From: Pelagomonas calceolata
Lineage: Eukaryota; Sar; Pelagophyceae; Pelagomonadales; Pelagomonadaceae
Reading direction: 5' to 3'
Length of the DNA stretch: 64,000 nucleotides
NCBI GenBank assembly: GCA_918797485.1
Contig: CAKKNE010000004.1
Coordinates: forward strand, 1,612,001 to 1,676,000
Every line of letters begins with the position of its first letter. Position 1 is the first letter of the stretch. Positions 7,748-42,706 of the stretch are shown piece by piece. The notes beneath the pieces are model-generated. The model was not told the DNA's origin. It made no database searches and was given only the letters and a program-made list of their open reading frames with translations. The position numbers and the translations under genes were made by a program.

Positions 7748-10609
7748 ATGACCGTCGCCATTTGTGCTAGACGCATTAGTCATCAAATAGGAGCTACGCT
7801 GGTATTTTCGCATCTGTTTTTTTTTTGTGCCCCCACGAATGCCAACCTTATTGATTGGCTGCGGCTTAAAGGGGGGATTGCGAATGGGCTCGAGATGGCT
7901 GAATTTGAGGGCATGGGCTACGGCCTAAGATGTTCATCACGACTCGAGACAGGCGCCCAGGCACTATTTGTACCATCATCTGTGATATTCAGTGGTGGGA
8001 ACGGGAATACAATTGCGCGTGCCCACGGGCAAATTCAGCCGCTTAGTGATGCAGATGCTATCGCCTTTAATCTGCTCTTGGAGCAGGCTAAAGGTCCGAA
8101 ATCTGTTTGGGCATTGTACATGTCTATGCTACCTCCCGCTGTCCTCACGCCGAAATTGTTTGGACAACCAGCCCTTAGCGCGTTGCATGAACCACAAGTT
8201 GCCAGACGTGCTGCAAGAGCACACGATCTAGCTGCAGCTACATTGGTGCGGGTCTCGCCAAGCCTTAGACGCGCAGTGCGGGCAGGCTGTGCTTTGGCGA
8301 GCGCCTCGGACATGAACATATGTATTGAGGCACACACGTCGATGGCAAGCTGGGCCTGGGCATTGTCGATTGTGAACTCAAGGGCATTGATATTCAAGGG
8401 CGTTCGTTTCCTCGTACCCATCGCAGACCTTGTCAATCATCGGACACACATTGGTGCGTGGATGCGGGAAGTTGAACATGGCAATTTCTTCTTGAAACAC
8501 CACGTTTTATCTACTTCAGGGCTTCACACATCAAGCGATCGCAACTTCGCTCCAGGCTACCAATTTTTTGAAGACTACGGTGACAACCCAACTCACATTT
8601 ATGTTGAACACCATGGCTTTGTCCCGGAAGAAGAGAATCCTTTTGACTGTGCGCCTGTCAAGCTTCCTAGCCTAAATCACGACGGGAATGGCCGCGCAAA
8701 TAGTCGAATTGACGTCCTGACTGCAGTTGGTGTCCATAGGATGCCATCAAAATGCATGCCTGGCGAGCTCAATCGCGTCCGTCAGGATGTACGCATCTTG
8801 ATATGGGCGCTCAGCATAAACACCACACAGCTTGAGGCCTGTCCTGCCACACTTAGCGACGGTGCTGCATCCTCTCAATGCGAGTATGCTTTTCCGCTGC
8901 CATCTTTGCACGAACGTGTAATCGCCCCCGCATTACTCAACGAAGCAACGGGCGGGCTTGCGGCCTTTAAGACGACACTAAAGAAAGATGAGATGGCTCT
9001 GGTAGATCCTTTGCTCGCACACGATCTGCGCCTCTCTATTTGCTTCCGAAAATCCCGGAAGCGTGTCTTGATGCGACTCGCCAGCGAAGCTGCGGCCGCC
9101 ATAATATGCGAAACTTCTAATAACAATCCCCACGATAAAAATGACGACCGTGTTGCACATGCGCCATTTGTGGAGCTTAAAAAAACTGTGATGCTGGGTC
9201 CACTAACAAAACGTGTCGCTGACTTCAATGCATGGACAAGCTCACGTAATTGGCCAGTGCTTCACGTAAAAGCAGCGATCCTGTCGTCACATGGAGGCCG
9301 GATTGGTGCGGTTGCAACTAAATCTTTAAATCAGGGGGAAGTCTACGTAGACGTCCCAGAGACTGACTGTCTAACAACAAGTGCTGCCCGCCGCGAGATT
9401 GGTACTGCAGTGCGTTCTCTCGATGACTTCCATGCAATTTTAATTTTTCTGGTGAAGTGCGTTGTGGCTTTAATCGGCAGTGATGGCAATGTCAATACCA
9501 CAAACAATCAGTTTGGACCCTACCTCGCTCTGCTTCCAGGAATTGATGAAATTGTCAGTTTAACCCTTGGCATCACATTGGGCCAGGATCATCACAGTGC
9601 CCAGAGCCCCCCGCTACTTTGGGCCAACTTGCCCACAAAGGCTGCAACTTTTGCACGGGACCGTCTTGAGGGCTCGGCCCTTGTGATCGCCCTACCTGCA
9701 TACGTCGCCTCGACGCAGCGTACCTACAATGCCATACTCCAGCGTATCAACCGGCGGGCTCTTGGAGCAGCCATCCGGCACTCTGACGTCGCTCTGTCTT
9801 GGCCCGTCTTCCGATGGGCTGCTCAGATCCTCGATAGTCGCTCTATATGGTGGAACGGTCAACGCCATCTAGTCCCAATGCTTGACCTTGTCAATGCGGT
9901 ACTTTTCATGTTTGGAATAGTCTTTAAGGTCAATTCCGGCGTAGGCAGATGCATTCGAGATACCACCCGGCACGAGCGTGCATCGCACCTCAACAGCAGT
10001 GCGAGATAGAAAGCGATTTGCCATTACATCTGCTGCGTGGCAGTTTGATCAAGGGGAACAAGTCCCTCGCCACGTCTAATTGAATTTACGAGCTTATTCT
10101 TTGGGTGTGTATTGTGGTAATCACAGGTTCTTGAGAATTATGGGCAACCGAATCATATCCTTTACCTTTATCATGGCTTTGCTCTAAGTGCCAATGACCA
10201 CGACTGCGTGCGTCTCGACTTTAAGATGACCATGGCCCATGATTCGGACGCACTGGACTCTGAAACTCCTGAATCTGCGGCCGTGAAGCGGCGTCTCTTG
10301 ACTTTTGGCTTCGGTGCATTGGATTACACCACTTGTGTCACGTCTGGTTCCCCGCATCTTGGGCGTCTGCTTGAGTTCATATCTATCAAGCACGGTGTTT
10401 CTCATAAAATTCATCACTCCCACTCGGGCGCTTATCTAGCACTGCTCGAGGAGGTTGACCACCGCATTTATATTTACGACCTGAATACCCGAGGTACTGT
10501 CGGTCACGCAAAGACGCTGATCTATAACGAGCTCGACCATCTCCGGAAGCTGAGAAGTGAACTTACCTACCTGCTTGGGTACAATGCGTTTCTTCCACTC
10601 GGGCGCTAA
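7748..10609 (+). CDS. Protein with two tandem SETD3/LSMT-like SET modules
   Basis: Exons 7748-9898, 9945-10061 and 10127-10609 (introns 46 and 65 nt) give 916 residues. The start ATG precedes a hydrophobic N-terminus (IGATLVFSHLFFFCA) that looks like a signal or transit peptide. Module 1 runs from LIDWLRLKGG to about residue 300 with GMGYGLRCSSRLETG, a VPIADLVNHR motif and FFEDYGDNPTHIYVEHHGFV. Module 2 (about 500-860) repeats the plan: GGRIGAVATKSLNQGE, MLDLVNAADAF and QVLENYGQPNHILYLYHGF. These match the SETD3/Rubisco-LSMT class of methyltransferases, which use S-adenosylmethionine to methylate Lys or His on non-histone proteins. The second module has Ala where the first has the His of the NH motif, so it may be inactive. 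Targets are unknown. A separate Rubisco substrate-binding domain is not evident. Confidence 0.82.
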
Positions 10610-31978: not shown

Positions 31979-34900
31979 ATGTATCAGGGCTACATGGCGG
32001 CGGGTAAAATGATTTCAAATTTTGCGACTTGTTGCATTGTACTGCTCAGAGGCACGTGTGCGCTGTCAGAACTTTCCGTGAAGATCCTCGCACAGAAGCG
32101 AGTTGAACCTCTACATCGCCTTTTGTCGTCGCTTCAAACTACCTTATACCCGCCCACGGCAAATGTCGATGTCGAGATCCATGTGGACCAATTACCCTCT
32201 GAGGGGTTTCATCTCTGGTCGCGGAGGTCCGCGCGGGATATAGAACAACGTGAAAAGGTTCTCGAGCTCTCTGACAATTTCGTGCGAAACTGGAGTCACG
32301 GTAATGCCAGAGTTGTGAAGCTAGAGAAATGGCATGGTGTCCGAGGCATGTGGCTTGCTTGTGCTGATCCTGGATTATATGGCGAGGAATTCTCGCGCTT
32401 TGTGATTTTCGAGGATGACGTTGAATTATCCACTGCCTGGTACGTATTTCCCCAGCTGCCTATGCTCTGAATCACCACCTAGGTTTGAATATCTTGCAGC
32501 AGCACATCGCGCGTACTCGATGAGTACCGGCATTGCTGGGATATCACTTCAGCGTCAAGCGGGTCGCATGGATGCCTACCCCGAAGAACTCGAGGGCAAA
32601 CGAGTTCGCCCTGGCAAGAATCAGCCGTTGGCTGCATTGAAGCCAACGACATACCGCGATACGCTCTATCTATTCCCACACGTTGGTAGCTGGGGATTTT
32701 CACCAGAGCCTAAAGTGTGGCATGATTTTTTGGACTGGTTTAAAAATCTTGAGGATGTAGATGCCCCCGAGAACTGGGTAACGCTAGTAGATACGGGCAA
32801 ACAAGTGAATCCAAAGCGTGAATCCCTCCCGTCTAGGTGGTATAGGCACGCGTTGAGCTCGCAGCGTGGTGAGCTGGGCATCTCGCAGGGGGGGGTGGCA
32901 GAGACAACTTCAAGCATGTGGACAGCCCACTTTGATACATTTTGCATGCAACGAGGTTTGTTTACATTGCACCCTCATCTCTTTGTATCCCAGGATGATG
33001 GGGGCGATTCGTTGGAGGTAGGACTTGCCAGGTCATGGCGGGAAGATGGAGCTCACTATCGGGGCTTCAATACACCAGATAGTTCCTTGCTTAGCCTGAA
33101 AGCCTGGCGAACTAAGTATTTATCTGGCTCGCTTACTGGTTTGTTTTTACCCGATGATGAAGTAGCACGGTTGACCCACGGGGGTGAGCGGCTTTCCAGT
33201 TCCGACGTGGCATATTTAAAGCGGCAATACGCAGCTAACAATCTCCAGCTCTCTGTGAATGCAGAAGGCCGGCGCTTGTTTGACTTGGACGTGTATTGGA
33301 ATTTGGAGAGCTCCATAGCACTCGATGATTTGACACATGCAGTGAATGGAAACACGTTTGGGTACTATAATCCACTCTCCACGATTACTCAAACCCAGGC
33401 ACACTGTATTCTTGGGGGGAAGTCGGTCGCCATTTTGGGTGATTCCATTTCCCGATATTTTACTTACACATTTAATCATTTTTTGGAGCACGGTGTGATT
33501 GCCGCCGAATGGGGGGAGCAAAATGGCGGCTGTGGAAAGTGGGGATGCGGTAACAGAGCAGATGGCGAGGCATGCTACGTCGGACCCTACTTTGATTGTG
33601 GCACAACTTGGACCGACGGCACGGACCGTTCCGGCAAAGCAGATCACCGCCAACACATTACAGCAACCATAGAAGGAGGTTACGGCGAAATAAAAACTAC
33701 TTTCTACTTCATTCAGGATACATGGTATGACGCCCTGCAAACTGAAGCTGCAGCAATTAAAGACCACGATGTGGTGATTGTAAATTCTGGCTGGTGGGAG
33801 CTCAAAGAAGACGACGACGACGATCACAGGTCAGATTCTTGCTCATTTGACGACGACGATGATGTTTCTGACTTTTACACTGATTCCGATTGCCTAGAGT
33901 CCTATGAGGACGACCTTAACGATCTGGTCGAAAGTATATTAAAATTCTTTGTTGTTGACGCTGAGAAGGCCGTGATATGGCGCCAAGTAACCTGTTGTGG
34001 CGTCAACTATATCGACTCCAGGCAGCGCATAGGCGCCATTGCTGTTGGAGCCATGAATGCGATCGCAGACAAAGTCATGGCTGACAACTCGATTGATACT
34101 GTTGCCGTGTACCAAATGTCCAATGTTGTCAATTTGATAAGTCGCACCTTCGACAACTTTCATCCTCGTTCCAATCAGTTGCATGTCTGGACACAGCTAT
34201 GCCTCAACAAAATTGCGAAGCAGCTCAACAAGGTTGATGAATGTCTCGTTTCTCCATCATCTACTCCATCAGCAAAGCCTGCCCCAACTCTAGGCTCAAA
34301 CCCTACAACGCCGTCGCCCTCTCATGGACAGCTCCCGTCTGCATCAGGCACACCATCACCAACAGCGCATCCGGCGACCGCAGCACCGATGGTTGTGACG
34401 CCAAGACCGACGAAAGCTCCATACCCATGGCCAACCAAACACCCCACTGAGGATCCTAATTTGAACATGGACTCTTCAGGATATGACATGGGTGAAGATG
34501 TGCGCGAGGCTTCAAGATCTCAGACCTTGATGGTCGGTAACCAGACATTTGAATTTACCTGTTTTTCATCAAATGACGGAATCACGTACAAAAACAAGCC
34601 AGCCTTGGACTTAGGAGAGTGTCCCACGGCTGGACAGAAAGTTTTATTGGCAATATTCATAGCTTCCTTGGCCTCGTACGTGATCGCGCTGATGCTGAAG
34701 CCACCAGGCACAAAAGGGTCTAGCTTGCGTGCATTTCAGGCGTCAGCAAGTAACTCCACGGGGCCATCTACAGCCAGCAAGACCGAGATATCTACTTTAG
34801 AAGACGAACTTTCTAACTCTGCACTTCAAGTTCTTCGCCAGATGGAGGACATCGAGGTTCGGTCTGGACCAAGCCAGCTCGCATCCGTTGCTGAGTGCAA

Positions 34901-36671
34901 AAATGAAAGCTGCGATTTTTCGGGCAAAGGCTCTGAAAGCTGCAACACAAAGGTGACAGCATCACGGGCCGTAGCTCGACAACGATCCTCAGCGCAACGA
35001 TCAGGACTAAGGGTTTCCTCCATACGTGATGGGAGCCACCACGCACCCCGAACTTCGGTATCTTTAGTCAACAAGACTCTTTCGGTCGCTGGTGCATCTG
35101 TCCGCACATCGTCTTACGCGGAACCCCATCTTGATCCTAAGGTTTCCTCGGTTGCATTTTCTTTCTATGATGGCGGAGACTCAGACGACGAAGAAGTTGC
35201 ACCGATCAATGCAGCCGTCCTAGATATATCAACTGGTAGTAAGCACGGACAGCAGGCTCGTGAGACTGCTCGGACAGCTCTCGAGTTTGCATTCCTGCTG
35301 ATGGTCTGCGTTGTCGGTGAACATCGCATGCCATCTGGCTTCCTACCTGCAGGAACCACGATAGCACCCGAGAATCCTGATCTCTGGTCCTTTATCATGG
35401 TTCTAGTTTTTCTCGTTTCGCTGCTCAATGTGGAAGTCCTCGAAGAAGGAACCGAGGTGTTCTTGTCGCGCGCCCAGGCCAATGAGTGGAAAGGCTGGAT
35501 GCAGGTTGCATTTGTTGCCTATCACTATACAAACAATAATGACGTCTATGTTCCGATACGTTGGTGCGTCTCTGCCTATGTCTGGCTCACCGGCTTTGGG
35601 AATGGAGTTTACTTTTGGTCATCGGGTGATTTCTCATTCAAACGCTTCGCCCAGCAACTTTGGCGCATGAACTTTCTTTGCCTTTTTCTCTCGCTTTCGA
35701 CCGGTACCCCCTGGATCGAATACTACTTTGTTGCCCTTGCCACGGTTCACTTTACACTTATTTGGGTCTCGTTGGGTCTGGCCAGGGCCTTTGGCCACTT
35801 TGTTGCAGAATGGGAGAAACCCGACAAGAAGGAAAGTAGAGAAGCATGCTATGTAGAGAAGGCCCTTGGGTGTGGAATTATGATTGGTCTTTGTTGTCTC
35901 ATCTGGCTTGATCCTCACAACGACGGAGAGGGTGTTTACGACGTTGTTTTTCGCCCGAGTCTTCTTACCATATCAGAGCACACAGAATGGTACTTCTGGA
36001 TGCGCACAAAAATGGACTTCCTCTCTTCCCTTCCCGGCCTTTGCTTCGCTGTTGTCTATACACCCTTTCGAGACTCCTGGCCATATGGTATTTCACGCAC
36101 TGCACGCTGGTGTATTGGGCTATTTTCTAGTCTTCTATTTGCGGCAGCGATATGGATTAGTCAGCTGAAACAATATTGCTGCAATGGTGGTGCCGATTAT
36201 CGCACCGTGAATCCGTACATTGGCACCCTCTGGATTCCTGTTTACCTCCTGTTACGCAATTGTATGCCGTGGCTTTCTCGTCGTATAATGAAGCCTATTG
36301 AATGGATAGGAATGCATTCATTGGAATTTTATCTTCTCCAGTTTCACATATTTCTAACATCAGCCTCCCATCGTATCCTCTATATCATTCCTAAGGAGAG
36401 TTGGGGCTACACGAATATGTGCATTGTTGGATGCATTTACTTTGTCGTCGTCATTAAGGCTCTCGAAGTTACCAACGTGCTAAGAAATATTGCCTGGCGT
36501 GCGAGCCGCAGGAAAGTAATTCTCTCAACTCTATGGACTATCGGTGCCTATACGACGCTTGCAGATGCCAATTGGGACGATGGCACATGCTCGCGTCTGT
36601 CATGGGTACTCTGGTTGATCTGGTGTGCTATAGTAACAGGCCTTTTTGCATATTGGACCATAGCCGTGTAG
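31979..36671 (+). CDS. Fusion of GT-A glycosyltransferase, SGNH hydrolase-like domain and CASD1/Cas1p multi-TM O-acyltransferase
   Basis: Exons 31979-32439 and 32483-36671 (43-nt intron) give 1549 residues. Residues about 20-430 are GT-A-like: ILAQKRVEPLHRLLSSL, then VIFEDDVELSTAWFEYLA with the metal-binding EDD at about 145. Residues about 455-725 form an SGNH/GDSL domain with AILGDSISRYF (473-475), SGWWEL and the catalytic pair in FDNFHPRS (Asp711, His714); it carries an Asp-rich loop. A Ser/Thr/Pro stalk follows (about 735-800), then one membrane helix near 873 and a 170-residue basic cytosolic loop. The rest is a polytopic domain with IGMHSLEFYLLQFHIFL, matching the Cas1p 10-TM acyltransferase signature. 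CASD1 proteins O-acetylate sialic acid in the Golgi using acetyl-CoA. Here the same protein probably also adds a sugar. Glycan and acyl donor are unknown. Confidence 0.88.
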
Positions 36672-38878: not shown

Positions 38879-41800
38879 ATGGCACCGGTTAAGAGTGGTC
38901 CCCAGAAGCACAATGATGATCCACTCATCTGGGACCTCACGTTGTTTGCAAGGCGCACGCTTAAGCAGGCGGTACGTACAGAGCGACTTGGAAGTACACG
39001 GGGGCGACAGCCTCGCGGGCTCAGGGTGAACCTAGGAGGCCCGAGGACGGAGAAGCACATGCCCTTCGTGCCCAAACCGTTACCTCGGGACATCCTCTTA
39101 ATGAGCCAAGACTCACTCTCGCTTAGATATGAGAAAGGCACGAGTCGCGCGAGCCAAGCAAGTACTCTCAATATTCCTACAGAAACAGCAAAGCTACCAG
39201 CGCTAAGCCCCAGGCCTAATGAGTGTAAGATCCTCAGAGATACGAGGCCATTATTGGAGGGGACGTCATCATCCGCACCTAAAAGTACTGTGCAGCCGGC
39301 CTCAGTCCAGAAGACAATTGAGGAATTGAAGGCTTCGCCATTCAATGGTATTGCTGGTGGACAAGCGCCCAGGCTACCCCTGCCCAGCCTTGCATCTCCG
39401 CATAACCTGTGCGAACTTAAGGGTAAAAATGCGAATATCGAGAAGACTGGGCCGACAATATGGTCTGTTGAGGACTTGAATAGCAAATATAGAAACAAGC
39501 TTCTGCGTAAGAGCGCTCACCACGTCTCACTCAAGGTGCAAGAGCTTCAGTCAGAGCTGGTGAAAGAGGAGTCATTGATTAGCGTTGTAGGGCTCACGAG
39601 ACATCCGCTGCTTGCCCTATGTGATCAGCACACAGAGACGGCAAACTTACTTTGCATAGGACGAGGCCGTGCACGTTGCGTGGCAAGGCGATTTGTATTG
39701 GAGGTTCATCAAATCTGGCTGACAAATCTTGACCACCTCGAAGCCTCAAATCGCGGTGCTATCCCGCGACACCGCCGAATAGACATTGATGCTATTCTTG
39801 GCGTGAAGTCACAGGTTCAATCAGTTGCCAGCAAAAACTCTTGGCGTCTCCTGACATCACAAAGCCCTGCATCAGCATTTCTCATCTCGACGCCCAGCTT
39901 GCTTTCTCTGCCGACGACAAAAAATGCCCTCCTCTTTGAGCAAGGTCTGGAAACCGTCACTATTTTATCATGTGAACACCTTATGCGTGGTGGTGTTGTT
40001 TACTTGGCGTCACTCATGCGAGAATTCTGGCCAGGGTACATGATACCAGCCAAGTGGCGATTCTCGTTTTACGACCCACTCACGGGCGTGAAAACGTCAG
40101 CTGTGACATATGAGGGTGCTGAAACATTTAGGAATTCCGCTGTGCCGCTTGCACCATTGATACTTGCACCAGGCTTGGCTCGTCCCCCATCGGTAGAACA
40201 TAATTTAGTTTACACGCAGGGTTGCCTAATTCAGGGAGCAAAATGTGGATCTGTTGCAGCCGCCATCTGTCAAGTTTTTGTTTGTAGCCCCCGCGCGGAC
40301 GACCGTAACCGCATTGTTTTCTTTGATTTTGTGCTATTACCATGCAATAAGATACTCGCTCCGTGGCAGATTCAACTTGATGCGCTTGATATAGTTGGGC
40401 AGCTTGGCCTCTCACACGCGCCGTGCACGGTGGCTGAGTGGTGGTGCCAGCAAGGACAGGCCGGACTCTATGCGTCACTGCTTGCCCAGTTTGTCTGGAA
40501 GGCCGATGCACTGCAGCTGCAAACACCTCGGGGGGAGTCCTCATTAGCGTGGGGCTTTGACTTCAAGTTGGTTGCAACTCGTGCCGCTGAGTACCTCGGT
40601 ATCTTGACTGTAGAATCGCCGCAGTCTGGTCATCAGCATATTGCTTGTTTGGAGTTAGAAGGAGAATCTTACGATGAGGATGTACGCGCTATCAACAACC
40701 AAAGTGATGTTTTAAATCAGGGTGTACTTGCTGAGGGAGGTAATCCGCAGCAACTTAAGCAAAGACCCGTAGCTTCTCTATCGCTCTCCGTCTCCGGCGC
40801 GTGGGATCGTGCTTTTCAAGTGCCTGGAACGACAGGCGTCGGCACTTCTAGGCGCAACGTTACGATCCACGATCTCACTTTGCGGACCCAGATTCTACAG
40901 AATTGCGATGATGATCTACTCACAGATGGCCCTGAGACGATTGCGAGCCTGTACCGCGCTAACATGAGACTCCTTGATAGTGTCATTATCAATGTTGCGC
41001 AGGCGTTAGAATGTATTATTTTCTCCCCAAGTCACATATCCTGGGATAACGTAAACTTGAACCCGCCAGACGTATTCAGTTTTACCCACACGATTTGCAT
41101 TCCAGTTGTGCAGAAAACCCATCTCTGTCATGGTTGCTATGCATTCCTGTCACCAGCCACATGCATCGTCAGTCGATGTATTTTTGTGCTTACAACCAAC
41201 ACAGTTTCAGCTGGCTGTGGTATTGGCTCCAAAGTGGCCCCCATTGAAAATATTCCCGAGAGTGATGAGCGTGGGTTCCGTGTCGTGGTTTCATGCGCCC
41301 TGATTTCCCCGGCTCGGGACCTGAATATCCATTTTTTTTCACTGACGCGGGACGTTGCAACTCCCAACAAGGGTGCGCTGACCGACCGAGCTAATCGACA
41401 CTCAACAGAAATTTGCATATTGATCCTCAGCCGCATCCGCGTCGTCGATGACTATATCCACATACTCCACAAAAAGTCCCATCAGGGAGCCAATGACCCA
41501 GGCTTCTACAGCATCCATCTGCAACATGCCGGGTTCAGTGCACTGAGCCGTAGTGACTTAGCAACATCAAAAGAAGTAATTTCCATAGAACAGGAGCACA
41601 ATTTGCTTAAGGAGAAACGACGCCGCCTTGAGGATAAGCTTTCAAAGGGCAGAAAGTTTCTTGCGGGTAGGGAACAATCAAGTCCACGCCCCCAAAACAC
41701 ACAGGCTGCCATGTGCGAGGATAAGAGCCTTGAGGTGGTAGGAAATAACATCAACCCGAACACTGTAGATGGCAAACTCGCCAAATCCAAGGAAAGTATG

Positions 41801-42706
41801 ATCACATCAAGAGCTGTCGTGGACCTGCTGGCAACAAAGCTAGGTATTTCACAGTTCCATGTCTCGCAAAGCGTGGGGGTTAGAAAGTTTGCACTAAGTT
41901 CCGACGAGGAAAATGCATTTAGCCCCTCGTCGAAGATGACAGAACCTCTAAACCGACGGCCCGCGCGACCCGATCTGCCGCCGCTGTTACCTGGGCAATC
42001 GATGAATTCCACTGTGACTAAGGGTCCACTCGCGTGGCGACGTATACATCGCCACTCAAAGGCAAAGTTAACCATGAAATCGTCGTTTTTGGAATCACGC
42101 ATCCAGGGCGCCATTGACTCTATTGTAAACACAGCGCCTCAGCCCGCAATTGTGGGCATGGTCCATCCAGCCACTGGAACTAAACACATTGTCCCTGCCT
42201 TTTTAACAATTCATGATGATTGCATATTGATTACAGAAATTCTTGAGGCAACAGTTCAATCTCTTGAGCACAAGAAAGGACTCAAGGCCGACACCGAACT
42301 ATCTGCCAAGGAACGTCTTCTTGCACAGTCGGACAAAGGTACGTCGTCGATTGCCGATCAGATTTCTGAGCTTGAGACTGTGGCCTTCATTCGTTGCAAG
42401 CTTGGACATGCCGATGGCGTTGAGGAATGCCTTGACCAGGAAGTTGCGATAGAAAACCGAGATGAGCACGGAAACACACTCTTGATAATTTCAGCACAGC
42501 AAAATGACAAAAAAATGCTCAAACTGCTCCTTCGTCGTGGTGCCGATATCAACGCCCAAAACTCAACAGGAAATACTGCGCTTCACTATACGAATGAGTA
42601 CAAATTTACTGCGCTCACAGAATATATCCTCAACAAGGGTGGAAATGACACTCTCCTTAACATGAAGGGGCTTACTTGCTACGAAGGTGTGAATGGAGTG
42701 AGCTAA
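38879..42706 (+). CDS. Large protein of unknown function with C-terminal ankyrin repeats
   Basis: A single uninterrupted exon encodes 1275 residues. Residues 1-190 are basic and low in predicted structure. From about 230 to 900 the protein looks globular and beta-rich (FWPGYMIPAKWRFSFYDPL, HNLVYTQGCLIQGAKCGSVA) but I recognise no named domain. A short coiled coil follows near residue 900 (EQEHNLLKEKRRRLEDKLSK), then a polar linker. At about 1165-1275 there are two to three ankyrin repeats: DEHGNTLLIISAQQNDKKML, LLLRRGADINAQNSTGNTAL, ending NMKGLTCYEGVNG. This ankyrin tail type is common at the C-terminus of long cytosolic protist proteins and mediates binding. No signal peptide or membrane segment is seen. 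Function is unassigned. Confidence 0.75.
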   Translation: MAPVKSGPQKHNDDPLIWDLTLFARRTLKQAVRTERLGSTRGRQPRGLRVNLGGPRTEKHMPFVPKPLPRDILLMSQDSLSLRYEKGTSRASQASTLNIPTETAKLPALSPRPNECKILRDTRPLLEGTSSSAPKSTVQPASVQKTIEELKASPFNGIAGGQAPRLPLPSLASPHNLCELKGKNANIEKTGPTIWSVEDLNSKYRNKLLRKSAHHVSLKVQELQSELVKEESLISVVGLTRHPLLALCDQHTETANLLCIGRGRARCVARRFVLEVHQIWLTNLDHLEASNRGAIPRHRRIDIDAILGVKSQVQSVASKNSWRLLTSQSPASAFLISTPSLLSLPTTKNALLFEQGLETVTILSCEHLMRGGVVYLASLMREFWPGYMIPAKWRFSFYDPLTGVKTSAVTYEGAETFRNSAVPLAPLILAPGLARPPSVEHNLVYTQGCLIQGAKCGSVAAAICQVFVCSPRADDRNRIVFFDFVLLPCNKILAPWQIQLDALDIVGQLGLSHAPCTVAEWWCQQGQAGLYASLLAQFVWKADALQLQTPRGESSLAWGFDFKLVATRAAEYLGILTVESPQSGHQHIACLELEGESYDEDVRAINNQSDVLNQGVLAEGGNPQQLKQRPVASLSLSVSGAWDRAFQVPGTTGVGTSRRNVTIHDLTLRTQILQNCDDDLLTDGPETIASLYRANMRLLDSVIINVAQALECIIFSPSHISWDNVNLNPPDVFSFTHTICIPVVQKTHLCHGCYAFLSPATCIVSRCIFVLTTNTVSAGCGIGSKVAPIENIPESDERGFRVVVSCALISPARDLNIHFFSLTRDVATPNKGALTDRANRHSTEICILILSRIRVVDDYIHILHKKSHQGANDPGFYSIHLQHAGFSALSRSDLATSKEVISIEQEHNLLKEKRRRLEDKLSKGRKFLAGREQSSPRPQNTQAAMCEDKSLEVVGNNINPNTVDGKLAKSKESMITSRAVVDLLATKLGISQFHVSQSVGVRKFALSSDEENAFSPSSKMTEPLNRRPARPDLPPLLPGQSMNSTVTKGPLAWRRIHRHSKAKLTMKSSFLESRIQGAIDSIVNTAPQPAIVGMVHPATGTKHIVPAFLTIHDDCILITEILEATVQSLEHKKGLKADTELSAKERLLAQSDKGTSSIADQISELETVAFIRCKLGHADGVEECLDQEVAIENRDEHGNTLLIISAQQNDKKMLKLLLRRGADINAQNSTGNTALHYTNEYKFTALTEYILNKGGNDTLLNMKGLTCYEGVNGVS

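Follow-up and report, generated by a model that had tools for sequence, protein, structure and literature searches.

Can one protein both extend a glycan and O-acetylate it? The question is raised by a gene of the ocean picoalga Pelagomonas calceolata, at positions 31979 to 36671 on the forward (+) strand of a 64,000-nucleotide stretch of its contig C4 (1612001-1676000), here called the window; the genome in which related genes were sought comprises 32,445,274 bases in 8 contigs. Glycan O-acetylation is usually carried out by enzymes separate from glycosyltransferases. In the gene examined here, a glycosyltransferase-like (GT) domain, an SGNH domain and a Cas1_AcylT membrane domain follow one another in that order in one reading frame, and the acetylation residues are retained. 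The gene with its three parts in this order is real. Judged from the sequence, the acetyltransferase end is firm, while a motif together with weak similarity points to the sugar-adding part. As a whole, we lean somewhat towards an explanation in which GT transfer and O-acetylation at two centres are combined in one membrane protein.

Joining 31979-32439 to 32483-36671 gives 1549 codons and a single stop, so that the first-pass annotation, which described one frame of 1549 residues with one 43-nt intron, was correct in coordinates, length and intron alike. Exon 1 (31979..32439) encodes residues 1-153 and two bases of codon 154, covering a putative signal anchor and the first half of the GT domain. 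It is followed by a predicted intron with GT..AG ends (32440..32482), and exon 2 (32483..36671) runs from the end of codon 154 to residue 1549 and then the stop. If the intron were retained, translation would end at the stop at 32468-32470 with a product of 163 residues. Ending the intron at the following AG (32499) instead was ruled out, as it places 73 stops in frame. Exon 2 sits in one stop-to-stop frame (32406-36668, 1421 codons), from which the GT domain's second half, the SGNH region and the Cas1 domain are all read; therefore, the continuity of the three parts does not depend on the intron, which settles only whether the first 153 residues, including the EDD motif described below, belong to the protein. 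Third codon positions have a GC content of 0.51-0.52 in the SGNH domain and in each part of the GT domain, 0.50 in the C-terminal transmembrane region (CTMR) and 0.44-0.45 in two linkers, and thus the border between GT and SGNH shows no compositional break.

At the acetyltransferase end, Cas1_AcylT (PF07779), a multi-transmembrane acyltransferase family, matched residues 1123-1498 (35388..36515) with E=1.9e-51 and 175.8 bits against a cut-off of 27.3, and the motif LLQFH stands at residues 1438-1442, in agreement with the earlier assignment of a CASD1-type acyltransferase bearing an LQFHI-type signature. A Pfam scan of the whole protein (E up to 1) listed this family and, inside it, a sub-threshold DUF3397 (E=0.0056, 17.3 of 25.9 bits) and no more. 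A genome search for Cas1_AcylT returned three places, namely the window gene on C4, a frame of about 570 residues on C3 that consists of the CTMR only, and a C5 paralogue of about 1206 residues (L005 2860-6552) with SGNH and Cas1_AcylT domains. Identity between the window gene and the C5 paralogue reaches 41% in the CTMR (E=1e-88) and 25% in the SGNH domain (E=1e-16). Mapping by spacing and motif rather than by alignment to the CASD1 sequence, with Q1440 placed by motif alone, pairs R1150, K1157, H1168, R1208, R1215 and Q1440 with CASD1 R428, K435, H446, R489, R496 and Q714, respectively; the six are invariant in 3/3 Cas1 paralogues of the genome. CASD1 has the same R-K (7), K-H (11) and R-R (7) spacings, whereas its distance from H to R is 43, against 40 here. 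His1168 is encoded at 35523..35525 and Gln1440, the proposed counterpart of Q714 within LLQFH, at 36339..36341. The CTMR of human CASD1 acts as an acetyltransferase in its own right: complementation is lost when H446 is changed and falls by about 35% with Q714A, and R428, K435, R489 and R496 are important chiefly in proteins whose luminal site has been inactivated as well (PMC13043746).

The SGNH or PC-esterase-like domain occupies approximately residues 450-745 (33369..34256; limits estimated). Members of the PC-esterase family are defined by GDS and DxxH motifs, a lost GxND block and W or H at the N position (PMC2824669). All of these traits are found in the window gene as LGDSISR, IVNSGWWELK and DNFH, each with a counterpart in the C5 paralogue: GDS at residues 473-475 with the nucleophile Ser475 (33438..33446), NSGWW at 588-592 with Trp replacing GxND (33783..33797), and DNFH at 711-714 with the Asp711/His714 pair (34152..34163). 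GDS and the Asp/His pair are thus retained, as had been claimed. A genome-wide search with PC-Esterase returned only three other places (L010, L011 and L012), two above the cut-off and one below. A profile built from the C4 and C5 SGNH domains scored 7.8 bits against L011, which 0/300 shuffles equalled, and was weak against L010 (0.7 bits, 8/300 shuffles as high) and L012 (0.5 bits, 9/300). Pairwise comparisons of the window gene's own SGNH domain were weak throughout (41/300, 20/300 and 37/300 shuffles as high against L010, L011 and L012, respectively), and a sequence search of the PDB with the SGNH part gave nothing, the best E being 0.09.

What, then, is the domain in front? It probably is a GT-A glycosyltransferase, of approximately residues 30-390 (32066..33191, intron included; limits estimated). 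The domain follows a hydrophobic segment at residues 11-29 (32009..32065; hydropathy 1.57) that is probably a signal anchor or signal peptide. The putative metal-binding motif EDD (residues 145-147, 32411..32419) aligns with the EDD of GnT-I and sits about 110 residues beyond the first putative strand (VKILA, residues 34-38), in keeping with the acidic metal motif that closes the nucleotide-binding half of a GT-A fold. The spliced block EDDVELSTAWFEYL is colinear with GnT-I EDDLEVAPDFFEYF, with 7/14 residues identical in an ungapped alignment that spans the splice junction. When residues 29-366 were scanned alone, GNT-I was the sole Pfam family at E up to 10 (E=0.023; E=0.011 for a shorter piece). 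With the intron removed the region gave this match (E=0.011); the unspliced open reading frame gave none. The proposal of a GT-A-like domain with an EDD motif was thus partly supported, by the colinear block and by a GNT-I match that remained below its cut-off.

Several results weigh against a glycosyltransferase in front of an SGNH domain. GNT-I (PF03071) scored 14 and 15 bits against a cut-off of 25.4 and was not listed in the whole-protein scan, and no Pfam GT profile reached its curated cut-off in the N-terminal domain. A profile of three GNT-I proteins of this genome together with rabbit GnT-I gave 7.2 bits over the EDD block only, a score as high being found in 1/1000 shuffles (581 listed); with the alga's own three proteins alone, 1/200 shuffles scored higher. 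Membership in GT13 was ruled out, as the Pfam cut-off was missed and the custom profiles came near the shuffle range and not clear of it. The single-sequence hhalign comparison of the GT region gave no meaningful match, and phmmer against the PDB with residues 1-466 gave none (best E=0.67). Single-sequence AlphaFold models had pLDDT values too low to inform, both for residues 28-153 of the GT domain, the only part of it modelled (40.7), and for the SGNH part (34.5). The SGNH part drew no Pfam PC-Esterase (PF13839) match even at E up to 10; most members are missed by such profiles, according to the family's authors (PMC2824669).

Relatives of the GT domain were not found in the collections searched, which also counts against the assignment, so that conservation offers no guide to the domain's other catalytic residues. 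These collections were viral_contigs, genome_contigs, plasmids and phages, with P. calceolata as the only eukaryote genome. Searches of the first two demand a pattern match and tblastn E<=1e-3, so that distant relatives may escape; no GT relative was confirmed among 17, 220 and 173 pattern stretches of viral_contigs or among 60 and 589 of genome_contigs, nor did the Cas1 alignment yield a confirmed relative among 29 stretches of viral_contigs. Plasmids and phages held no relative by tblastn at E<=1, and PHROGs and NCBIfam gave no match. In the alga's own genome, a protein search for GT paralogues gave back only this gene's two exons. Two motif scans of the genome produced one candidate, which was rejected as a protein-phosphatase-like frame; both patterns miss the codons of the window gene itself and hence are narrow. 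A degenerate GT ahead of the SGNH domain of the C5 paralogue was likewise unsupported (local alignment score 33, 206/500 shuffles as high). That paralogue has a region of about 200 residues there without a Pfam family, and a Cys-rich stretch after the SGNH domain. Of the three Cas1_AcylT places in this genome, one shows the GT fusion. On C5, three separate places (L015, L016 and L017) match GNT-I (GT13) above the cut-off, which suggests a GnT-I/POMGNT-like set in P. calceolata.

A simple hydropathy scan (threshold 1.3), which probably gives too low a count of transmembrane segments, placed none between the N-terminal segment and residue 874, one at 874-892 (34641..34697; hydropathy 2.63) and seven at 1081-1547. 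A Pro/Ser/Thr-rich linker (approximately residues 746-872, 34257..34637) precedes the segment at 874. The gene product may be pictured as one membrane protein in the secretory pathway, probably in the Golgi, whose short N-terminal anchor would leave both a metal-dependent GT-A domain and an SGNH domain of PC-esterase type on the luminal side. The Pro/Ser/Thr linker and one transmembrane helix would then lead to a cytosolic linker and to a CASD1/RWA-type transmembrane acyltransferase. The GT domain would transfer a sugar from a nucleotide-sugar onto a glycan. Two acetylation centres, a luminal Ser475-Asp711-His714 triad and a transmembrane His1168 fed by cytosolic acetyl-CoA, would O-acetylate the added sugar, or the one next to it, before it leaves the enzyme. 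From the sequence we infer this topology, including the luminal side of the SGNH domain and the Golgi site. That the acyl group is acetyl is likewise presumed, as are the acceptor, the shared-substrate step and the extension and O-acylation of the same glycan that the first-pass annotation suggested.

The strongest alternative is that the GT-like fold no longer transfers sugar and instead holds or selects the glycan acceptor, or a nucleotide-sugar, for the CASD1-type O-acetyltransferase. We regard this as unlikely, albeit worth serious attention: the EDD block alone is recognizable in the domain, and CASD1 uses the nucleotide-sugar CMP-Neu5Ac (PMC13043746), so that a domain binding sugar nucleotides would fit without any transfer; however, both the metal motif and the residues around it are preserved, an observation in favour of activity. 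It is quite improbable that the front domain is not a glycosyltransferase at all and that EDD is a chance match. The sub-threshold Pfam score, the low-confidence folding and the lack of relatives in the collections searched are what such a match would predict, but GNT-I was the only Pfam family to appear even at a permissive threshold, it was positioned in the metal-motif block, and the remaining parts of the protein modify glycans. It is very improbable that the first exon, with its GT sequence, and the SGNH-Cas1 part come from separate transcripts, since the uninterrupted frame of exon 2 joins the second half of the GT domain to SGNH and Cas1 and splicing restores the GnT-I-like block, even though a start codon at 32415 lies in the exon-2 frame and the C5 paralogue is an SGNH-Cas1 protein without detectable GT.

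The combination of GT transfer with O-acetylation at two centres can also be put in a stronger form, which we offer tentatively as a possibility: a self-contained synthase-modifier, in which one Golgi protein adds a sugar and acetylates it through both acetyl centres before release. In favour of the combined reading in general, the genome carries a match to Acatn, the family of SLC33A1-type acetyl-CoA transporters, which leaves room for both of the supply routes known from CASD1; the family also matches in 3/14 control genomes, which are bacterial, and hence is not specific.

Human CASD1 and Cas1p of Cryptococcus neoformans likewise carry a GDS/DxxH domain ahead of a Cas1_AcylT multi-transmembrane domain, and the Ser-Asp-His triad of CASD1 as well as its six CTMR residues (PMC13043746) have counterparts in the window gene. 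However, the window gene has approximately 360 extra residues in front, where the accessible accounts of CASD1 and Cas1p describe no glycosyltransferase domain, and a long linker separates its SGNH domain from the CTMR. The same two chemistries occur in plants in RWA (CTMR only) and TBL/AXY9 (PC-esterase only), which are separate proteins (PMC6110886). Like plants, the alga also has a Cas1-only frame, on C3, and separate PC-Esterase matches. Bacterial OatA and OafB (AT3-SGNH), likened here by description, fuse a transmembrane acyltransferase to an SGNH domain and have no GT; in OatA the SGNH domain comes after the membrane domain (PMC6110886), whereas in the window gene it comes before. Fusions of SGNH or PC-esterase domains to Cas1 or AT3 domains have been described, as have PC-esterase fusions with EGF, immunoglobulin-like and ATP-grasp domains (PMC2824669, PMC12423673, PMC9487903, PMC9558356 and PMC6110886). 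Within the open-licence literature, searched mostly at the level of titles and the beginnings of abstracts, no GT fused to SGNH or Cas1 was found. In that scope the GT-SGNH-Cas1 order is a previously undescribed form of the Cas1p/CASD1 architecture, and, as the first-pass annotation stated, an enzyme with this order has yet to be described. When the same literature was searched for pelagophyte O-acetylated polysaccharide, none of the 8 papers returned named pelagophytes.

With GnT-I (MGAT1, CAZy GT13) the window gene has the EDD block in common, and similarity elsewhere was undetected. We take Arabidopsis At5g12260 to be the likeliest candidate relative of the GT domain, a lead suggested by motifs (EDDLEVSP, LQR, VGTWG/G-S/T-WG, RG and PDS) that would resemble those of the GT domain. 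At5g12260 is an orphan GT-A protein with EDD and no Pfam domain, whose best fold match is GnT-I 1FO8; its published description includes no acetyltransferase part and gives residues 320-624 no function (PMC3522684).

A natural fusion of this kind would tie one glycosyltransferase to a CASD1-type acetyltransferase and make their coupling testable within one protein. If the proposal is true, acetylation would be fixed upon sugar addition, rather than being a later, partial modification. For the orphan At5g12260-like glycosyltransferases it would be the first hint at a function. The fusion also suggests an activity with which an orphan GT-A family may be paired. More speculatively, acetylation of surface glycans in an ocean picoalga could influence grazing, virus attachment and degradability.

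Finally, we examined the surroundings of the gene. Ten of the 16 other long frames listed for the window were scanned with Pfam (E<=0.001); eight fell in ordinary families and two had no match. An open frame at 7748-10006 (+, 753 residues) gave no Pfam match at this threshold, and a frame at 38879-42703 (+, 1275 residues) has ankyrin repeats only near its C-terminus (from residue 1173) and no other match. Neighbouring genes match the MutL, GT41, BRCA2, BET bromodomain and V-ATPase families. At 51.4% GC, the window lies within a low-GC trough of C4; such troughs, one per contig, were read as centromeric in the genome paper (PMC9481584). In 18 samples of 4 kb along C4, GC content was 62-65% in three at 1300-1450 kb, 46-53% in five at 1500-1605 kb, 67% at 1720 kb, 52-57% in three at 1760-1840 kb and 64-73% in five at 1880-2100 kb. 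The sample at 1690 kb reached 79% GC and is flanked by two low-GC stretches.

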